Below are positions 2,988-27,569 of a DNA stretch of 33,769 bases, piece by piece. Position numbers and translations under genes: made by a program. Positions within the stretch are counted from its first letter, which is position 1. Each line of letters begins with the position of its first letter. Location of the stretch: the IMG/VR virus record IMGVR_UViG_3300020474_000052, positions 1-33,769 of that record; one strand, given 5' to 3'. The notes beneath the pieces were generated by a model. It did not search any database. It had not been told where the DNA came from and saw only the letters and a program-made list of their open reading frames with translations. The DNA comes from a virus.

Positions 2988-3137
2988 CTATGGATTTCTT
3001 GGATCAATACCTAAACTTTCAAGGTAATCAATCCACCAATCAGCATCTTTAATGTACTTCCAATTAGGAACTGGTTTACCTTGATCTACAGTATAATACT
3101 GATAAAGTGCATCATCTATAATCTGTGCGGTCTCCAT
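2988..3137 (-). CDS. Small hypothetical protein (49 aa)
   Basis: I place the start at the ATG at 3137 (METAQIIDDALYQYY), because a strong ribosome binding site (GGAGGAAG) precedes it inside the upstream gene; the overlap is 26 bases. An upstream in-frame start at 3218 would add a Met/His-rich low-complexity stretch and is unlikely. The protein is rich in Trp and Tyr (NWKYIKDADWWIDYLESLG). Function unknown. Confidence 0.66.
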   Translation of the reverse strand: METAQIIDDALYQYYTVDQGKPVPNWKYIKDADWWIDYLESLGIDPRNP

Positions 3138-22586: not shown

Positions 22587-22659
22587 TACCTGTGGTGAGA
22601 CTCGAACTCACACTGTATCGATTTTAAGTCGATTATCTCTGCCATTGGATTACACAGGC
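22587..22659 (-). tRNA. tRNA with anticodon UAA (Leu), class I body
   Basis: 73 nt. Acceptor GCCTGTG pairs with CACAGGT (one G-U), anticodon stem ATCGA/TCGAT around loop CTTAAAA, so the anticodon is UAA; T stem GTGAG/CTCAC with TTCGAGT. Discriminator A, no encoded CCA. The variable loop is only five bases, although bacterial tRNA-Leu normally has a long one. It lies just after a large stem-loop and away from the main tRNA array. Confidence 0.88.
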
Positions 22660-25544: not shown

Positions 25545-25618
25545 TGCCCGATACAGGATTTGAACCTGTAAAACCTTGTTTCTAAGACAAGTATGTATTC
25601 CAGTTCCATCAATCGGGC
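25545..25618 (-). tRNA. tRNA-Leu(UAG), short variable loop
   Basis: 74 nt. Acceptor GCCCGAT/ATCGGGC, anticodon stem CTTGT/ACAAG around CTTAGAA (UAG). The D arm (TGATGGAACTGGAATACAT) is leucine-like, but the long variable arm is missing. Discriminator A, no CCA. Confidence 0.92.
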
Positions 25619-26160: not shown

Positions 26161-26163
26161 AAG

Positions 26164-26235
26164 TGGAACTAACAAGATTCGAACTTGTGACCACTCGGTT
26201 ATCAGCCGAGTGCTCTACCACTGAGCTATAGTTCC
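26164..26235 (-). tRNA. tRNA-Ile(GAU)
   Basis: 72 nt. GGAACTA/TAGTTCC acceptor, anticodon stem CTCGG/CCGAG around CTGATAA (GAU). Discriminator A, no CCA. Confidence 0.95.
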
Positions 26236-27297: not shown

Positions 27298-27385
27298 TAC
27301 CCGTGGATGGATTTGAACCATCTCAAAGCCTCTAATCTGGAGGAAAAGGTGTATAAGACCTCTCTGACTACCAAGTCTCACGGGC
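27298..27385 (-). tRNA. Class II tRNA with anticodon UAU
   Basis: 88 nt. GCCCGTG/CACGGGT acceptor (one G-U), anticodon stem GAGGT/ACCTT around CTTATAC, so UAU by position, a long variable arm (CCTC/GAGG, loop CAGATTA) and T arm GATGG/CCATC. UAU would read Ile AUA, but class II bodies belong to Leu, Ser and Tyr. The D arm is short (GACT/AGTC). Amino acid not certain. Confidence 0.72.
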
Positions 27386-27395
27386 TGATGATGAA

Positions 27396-27569
27396 CTACT
27401 GAGCTTCGTTATTTTCCTCAGTGTGTATTCGTATTAGTTCATCATCGGCAGGCATCATTACTGCTGATGTGCCATCCTCTCGCACAATACCTATAGTTTC
27501 ACCCTTTTCGACTCTTTCTATAAGATCATCAAAATTGTCTTCCCATTCCTTCACAGTAAAAACTTCCAT
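27396..27569 (-). CDS. Phd/YefM-like antitoxin-type protein (57 aa)
   Basis: MEVFTVKEWEDNFDDLIERV, then EKGETIGIVREDGTSAVMMP, matches the Phd/YefM pattern: a helix, a Gly-turn, and the strand V-x-x-x-G. It ends in a short acidic tail. Such proteins bind DNA as dimers and neutralise a partner toxin in bacteria; cyanophages carry similar short versions with no obvious toxin. The ATG follows the upstream stop directly (TAAATG) with GGAGG seven bases before it. Cotranscribed with the 62-aa gene from the consensus promoter at 27783. Role in the phage unknown. Confidence 0.78.
   Translation of the reverse strand: MEVFTVKEWEDNFDDLIERVEKGETIGIVREDGTSAVMMPADDELIRIHTEENNEAQ

Follow-up and report, generated by a model that had tools for sequence, protein, structure and literature searches.

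The window, i.e., the whole stretch of 33,769 nucleotides that was analyzed, is a cyanophage-like contig with 18 tRNA genes according to ARAGORN, among them a gene called as tRNA-Ile(tat) with exactly the ends given in Table 1. Between the arms listed there, the gene carries a single A after the 5′ acceptor strand, AGA after the D arm, TT after the anticodon arm and CTTTGA after the variable (V) arm. The structural features claimed in an earlier note were all recovered: a long variable arm (CCTC/GAGG) is present in the gene sequence, the ARAGORN call and the sequence agree on a UAU anticodon in the seven-base loop CTTATAC, and the short D arm (GACT/AGTC) consists of a 4-bp stem and a 4-nt loop. 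Beyond that note, the gene possesses a conserved V-arm loop, a G1.U72 pair and an anticodon stem of about 7 bp. The anticodon is flanked by U33 and A37, as in tRNA-Ile of the UAU type, but the variable region comprises 23–24 nt in place of the short loop on a class I body that is usual, though not strictly defining, for this type, so that the gene represents a non-standard variant of tRNA-Ile(UAU).

Table 1. Features of the predicted tRNA-Ile(UAU) gene and its surroundings in the window.
Feature	Coordinates	Strand	Remarks
Predicted tRNA-Ile(UAU), whole gene	27298..27385	-	short D arm and long variable arm; CCA not encoded
Acceptor stem, 5′ strand GCCCGTG	27379..27385	-	G1 opposite U72, wobble
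Reduced D arm GACT-TGGT-AGTC	27366..27377	-	4-bp stem, 4-nt loop; no stem variation among type B relatives
Anticodon arm GAGGT-CTTATAC-ACCTT	27346..27362	-	A-U and G.U extend the stem to ~7 bp
Anticodon UAU	27353..27355	-	predicted to read AUA; invariant in 101 distinct relatives
V-arm hairpin CCTC-CAGATTA-GAGG	27329..27343	-	covarying stem, conserved heptaloop
V heptaloop CAGAUUA	27333..27339	-	consensus CNGAUNA; resembles tRNA-Ile(GAU) anticodon loop CUGAUAA
T arm GATGG-TTCAAAT-CCATC	27306..27322	-	
Acceptor stem, 3′ strand CACGGGT	27299..27305	-	
Discriminator A73	27298..27298	-	invariant
Phd/YefM-like ORF	27396..27569	-	just upstream of the UAU gene, part of a conserved slot; Pfam match weak, below cut-off
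CAU tRNA, loop CTCATAA	27221..27295	-	directly after the UAU gene; recorded as Ile2 in phage Sf-FS3 and as Met in other records
tRNA-Ile(GAU)	26163..26235	-	same array; anticodon loop CTGATAA likened to the V loop
tRNA-Leu(UAA)	22587..22659	-	73 nt, short variable loop
tRNA-Leu(UAG)	25545..25618	-	74 nt, short variable loop

The Rfam tRNA model scored the window gene at 28.5 bits, slightly below the gathering cut-off of 29 because the tRNA core is unusual. A family model built in this study, with the window sequence in its training set, scored it at 107.7 bits, and the minimum-energy fold of the gene is the predicted cloverleaf (z = −3.0). When this cloverleaf was imposed on 41 relatives, 99.6% of the cells were paired, with slid-register controls dropping to about 40%, and double-sided changes were observed in 19 of 27 pairs, which was matched by none of 500 shuffles. 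RNAalifold recovered the identical fold with the anticodon stem lengthened to 7 bp. Compensatory changes are found in the acceptor, anticodon, V and T stems. The D stem is invariant, being constant even in searches which left it open, and its support is constancy, not covariation. The tertiary pairs 19:56 and 54:58 covary as well, since A19 is accompanied by U56 and A54 by U58 in all three members deviating at the respective pair. Judged by these exchanges, the window gene belongs to a family of living tRNAs with a predicted L-shape and a retained elbow.

BLAST searches revealed copies of the gene in the Sinorhizobium phage Phosso, where it is annotated as tRNA-Ile(tat), and in the Synechococcus phages S-SKS1 and S-SRM01, whose records leave it without annotation and thus illustrate how the family has been overlooked. 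Pattern scans yielded further copies in considerably more than 150 IMG/VR contigs among the matches listed and, additionally, in two Nostoc genomes. The 101 distinct relatives originate chiefly from cyanophages and freshwater phages; the UAU anticodon and A73 are each invariant (101/101), CCA is encoded in 62 members, and pair 1:72 is formed by G.U in 95 of them and by A-U in four. When any anticodon was allowed in the search, UAU was still the one in all matches listed. G1.U72 was also considered as a special mark of the family, but it is non-specific, being frequent in other phage tRNAs as well: in the fetched loci it is the commonest first pair of tRNA-Lys(UUU) (78%), tRNA-Leu(CAA) (64%) and tRNA-Glu(UUC) (56%).

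Two tRNA bodies carry the long V arm, namely the short-D-arm form found in the window, here called type B, and a form with the D arm AGCTCA...GAGC, here called type A. Type A, the form present in DSL-LC02, was found in about 75–80 further contigs, in Aeromonas phage 1233 and on two Xanthomonas plasmids, pXCV183 and pXCV19; on these, no other tRNA lies within the stretch read. These plasmid copies (loci L396 and L397, both at 3001-3093) are unlisted, the plasmid gene table being without any RNA genes, and such a lone plasmid-borne tRNA may hint at protection against tRNA-cutting defence. The Rfam tRNA scores of four type A examples range from 57 to 69 bits, which marks type A as an ordinary tRNA core into which, on this prediction, a hairpin is inserted. 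With the V loop fixed and the anticodon open, 79 of 80 type A matches had UAU, and the exception was not long-armed. Host chromosomes were rejected as a source, as just one of 386 sampled cyanobacterial genomes was positive (the Nostoc already found) and a second match turned out to be an ordinary tRNA-Leu. No description of a long-armed UAU tRNA family was found in the literature searchable here, and this family of phages and plasmids has apparently not been described so far. The main finding of this study is this family together with its anticodon-like V loop.

Among the 101 type B members, the seven-nucleotide V loop is CAGAUUA in 96, CCGAUUA in four and CAGAUCA in one. The set of 200 tRNAs was largely fetched by means of the V loop, and a fair count is therefore given by open searches. 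In those ignoring the V arm, C-N-G-A-U-N-A was present in 81 of 88 type B matches, the other seven mostly looking like chance matches or damaged copies. It was likewise present in ten of the 14 long-armed UAU tRNAs at loci L396 and above, most of which stem from the open type A search; the loops of these ten are CAGAUUA, CAGAUAA, CUGAUUA or CUGAUAA, and other V loops occur at L401, L429, L438 and L494. The motif is thus shared by two tRNA bodies and occurs in phages infecting cyanobacteria, Sinorhizobium or Aeromonas as well as on Xanthomonas plasmids, with V stems that are fully variable across the family, the closing pair included. Numbered as an anticodon loop, the V loop has fixed C32, G34, A35, U36 and A38 and free positions 33 and 37, a likeness to tRNA-Ile(GAU) that was noticed post hoc, after the data had been seen. 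In these arrays, most tRNA-Ile(GAU) genes have CUGAUAA or UUGAUAA as anticodon loop, and the V loop at locus L484 is identical to such a loop (CTGATAA). The neighboring Ser, Tyr and Leu tRNAs show varied V loops, which are mostly short and mostly tetraloops. With the UAU arm removed, the remaining body showed no preferential match to tRNA-Ile(GAU). A pairing of GAUUA in the V loop with the D-stem strand UAGUC was dismissed, since it is possible in the window, but impossible in type A bodies.

The genomic surroundings of the gene are conserved as well. In S-SKS1, the Phd-like ORF is followed downstream by Ile(UAU), the CAU tRNA and Leu(UAA). S-TIM5 has the same order, but its Ile(UAU) is a 72-nt class I tRNA, and a class I Ile(UAU) also adjoins the CAU tRNA in S-T4 and S-SM2, while DSL-LC02 holds a long-armed Ile(UAU) with canonical D arm in this slot. 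Within the whole or partial slot, the window, S-SKS1 and DSL-LC02 hence have the long form, and the related cyanophages S-TIM5, S-T4 and S-SM2 the class I form. Class I and long-armed Ile(UAU) interchange at one locus, and this replacement argues for the same function. Both forms also occur together, with class I tRNAs of 73–75 nt, at seven loci (L102, L121, L136, L141, L144, L147 and L161). If the CAU neighbor were an Ile2 tRNA, AUA would be covered twice in the window. Close copies of this CAU tRNA are present in many cyanophages, with an identical one in S-CAM4 (L299 2502-2574) being annotated as a pseudogene; a pattern search for CAU tRNAs in cyanobacteria gave no matches.

Further peculiarities of these arrays concern other tRNAs. 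Bacterial tRNA-Leu normally differs from forms with short variable loops like those of the two window genes in Table 1. Such short Leu tRNAs make up 38 of 102 UAA, 37 of 67 UAG and about 41 of 54 CAA genes in related contigs. Genes with A34 anticodons, which are rare in bacteria, were found for tRNA-Ser(ACU) (L090, L107, L150 and L210) and tRNA-Tyr(AUA) (L020 and L041).

To read the meaning of AUA, ORFs of 158 contigs carrying the tRNA were aligned with each other, and positions at which the partner had an identical codon were excluded. At conserved AUA sites, the partner residue was Ile in 213, Val in 38 and Leu in 30 cases, a profile the same as that of AUC (Ile 296, Val 62, Leu 41), with UUA sites giving Leu 519 and Ile 14; this comparison excludes a dominant wrong amino acid, and trace misreading would escape it because host tRNA-Ile2 reads AUA too. 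The window alone, in which AUA accounts for 22% of the Ile codons, has Ile at nine of 14 conserved AUA sites. Judged from these codon columns, AUA is not read as leucine in the carrier genomes, and a strongly expressed UAU tRNA carrying Leu or Ser does not fit them. SerRS prefers G73, and A73 was found in all members. A recoding tRNA, which had been offered earlier as one of three options, is therefore unsupported, given that AUA columns match Ile and not Leu or Ser, with the invariant A73 and the class I tRNA-Ile(UAU) in the same slot as further points against it. From these comparisons, it appears very likely that the window gene encodes a functional tRNA-Ile(UAU), presumably charged with isoleucine, that decodes AUA as this amino acid, i.e., the option of an unusual Ile tRNA is the one borne out.

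Taken as a whole, the available observations are probably best explained by an AUA-reading tRNA-Ile to which a GAU-like V hairpin that would aid its charging has been added. Two anticodon-like arms would follow each other between the D arm and the T arm. Of these, the UAU arm would serve the ribosome, with isoleucine inserted at AUA during infection, and the GAU arm would be presented to the host IleRS, supplying the determinants G34-A35-U36 (and A38) which are missing from UAU. In this way AUA would be served without lysidine modification. To reach the anticodon-binding domain of IleRS, the V arm and the anticodon arm might perhaps swap places under the D stem. As Taniguchi reportedly found in 2013, E. 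coli IleRS charges UAU tRNA poorly owing to Trp905. Nearly all of 30 sampled cyanobacterial IleRS sequences have Trp at this position, one gap and one misaligned row having been set aside. In 22 large records, neither a phage class Ia synthetase above the cut-off nor a TilS-family match was detected. Identity determinants of tRNA-Ile are the anticodon, A73 and t6A37, and bacterial IleRS recognizes the anticodon and A73 (PMC9976931). That the V loop takes part in charging by IleRS is proposed here tentatively. About 100 of 114 phage tRNA-Ile(UAU) with canonical D arm are class I tRNAs without an extra arm, and such an arm is thus not needed everywhere. Moreover, with A33 and U37 in its usual form, the V loop has neither a U-turn base nor t6A37. 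The seven loci with both forms, the four long-armed UAU tRNAs with other V loops and the body without preference for tRNA-Ile(GAU) after removal of the UAU arm were counted against the overall explanation. Equally guarded is the suggestion that the ribosome might read UAU and IleRS the GAU of the V arm, by which mobile elements could supply AUA decoding where IleRS rejects UAU.

It is quite possible, instead, that the host IleRS charges the tRNA by its own UAU and A73, and that the V arm and its loop serve core stability, fidelity versus AUG or resistance to host tRNA nucleases. This would agree with the armless class I tRNA-Ile(UAU) being common in phages and occupying the same slot, and a protective role would suit the solitary copies carried by Xanthomonas plasmids; it leaves the fixed V-loop bases matching the Ile(GAU) anticodon loop unexplained, however, and has to assume charging by a cyanobacterial IleRS of the W905 type. 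A tRNA-like decoy or regulatory RNA outside translation might be suspected from the divergent core, the conserved V loop and the solitary copies on plasmids and at the two Nostoc loci, but appears unlikely in view of the anticodon loop with U33 and A37, the preserved pairs between D and T loops, the 62 members with encoded CCA and the location inside large tRNA arrays. Slightly more improbable is a leucine (or serine) tRNA reading AUA, be it for recoding or as a missense tRNA: although the long V arm and A73 are tRNA-Leu-like and E. coli LeuRS depends on A73 and on contacts of the D and T loops rather than on the anticodon (PMC9976931), AUA aligns with Ile, conserved sites show no Leu excess over AUC, A73 disfavors SerRS and the type A relatives have a core of class I type. 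A decayed gene, also among the earlier options, could be read from the short D arm and the marginally low Rfam score, but is rejected as next to impossible by the strong covariation, seen as compensatory exchanges in four of the five helices as well as in 19:56 and 54:58, and by an anticodon invariant over 101 sequences.

No codon is harder to assign cleanly than AUA, for whose separation from AUG most bacteria require lysidine. A widespread tRNA of mobile elements with a different solution for AUA would represent a third route beside lysidine and an altered IleRS. If IleRS indeed read the second loop, coding and identity would be physically split within one tRNA, which would be relevant to tRNA biologists as well as to builders of orthogonal tRNAs.

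Among known systems, the tRNA-Ile(UAU) found in Mycoplasma mobile, in Lactobacillus plantarum and in others are, as far as known, ordinary class I tRNAs. The family presented here has in common with them the UAU anticodon and AUA as Ile codon, but differs by the long V arm, whose GAU loop is conserved, and, in the case of the window gene, also by the reduced D arm. Reading of AUA by tRNA-Ile(UAU) is established for both species and for others (PMC4013482, PMC8450103, PMC9976931). Allo-tRNAs (Mukai 2017; review: PMC7609411), including the allo-tRNA-UAU group, feature a long V arm, a long anticodon stem and UAU as one of their common anticodons, all of which are shared by the window gene. In contrast to their 8/4 or 9/3 acceptor/T branch, the branch is 7/5 here, with A73, an anticodon that never varies and an intact fold; an 8/4 allo-tRNA identity was ruled out, as the T stem retains 5 bp. 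The stem-loop in the variable region resembles that of the class II Leu, Ser and Tyr tRNAs, and A73 is shared with Leu and Tyr, whereas UAU, the conserved heptaloop, AUA as Ile codon and the class I-type core of the type A relatives set the family apart from them. Finally, the small D loop and the extended anticodon stem are reminiscent of tRNA-Sec, which differs by its 8/5 branch and UCA anticodon from the 7/5 branch and UAU found here.
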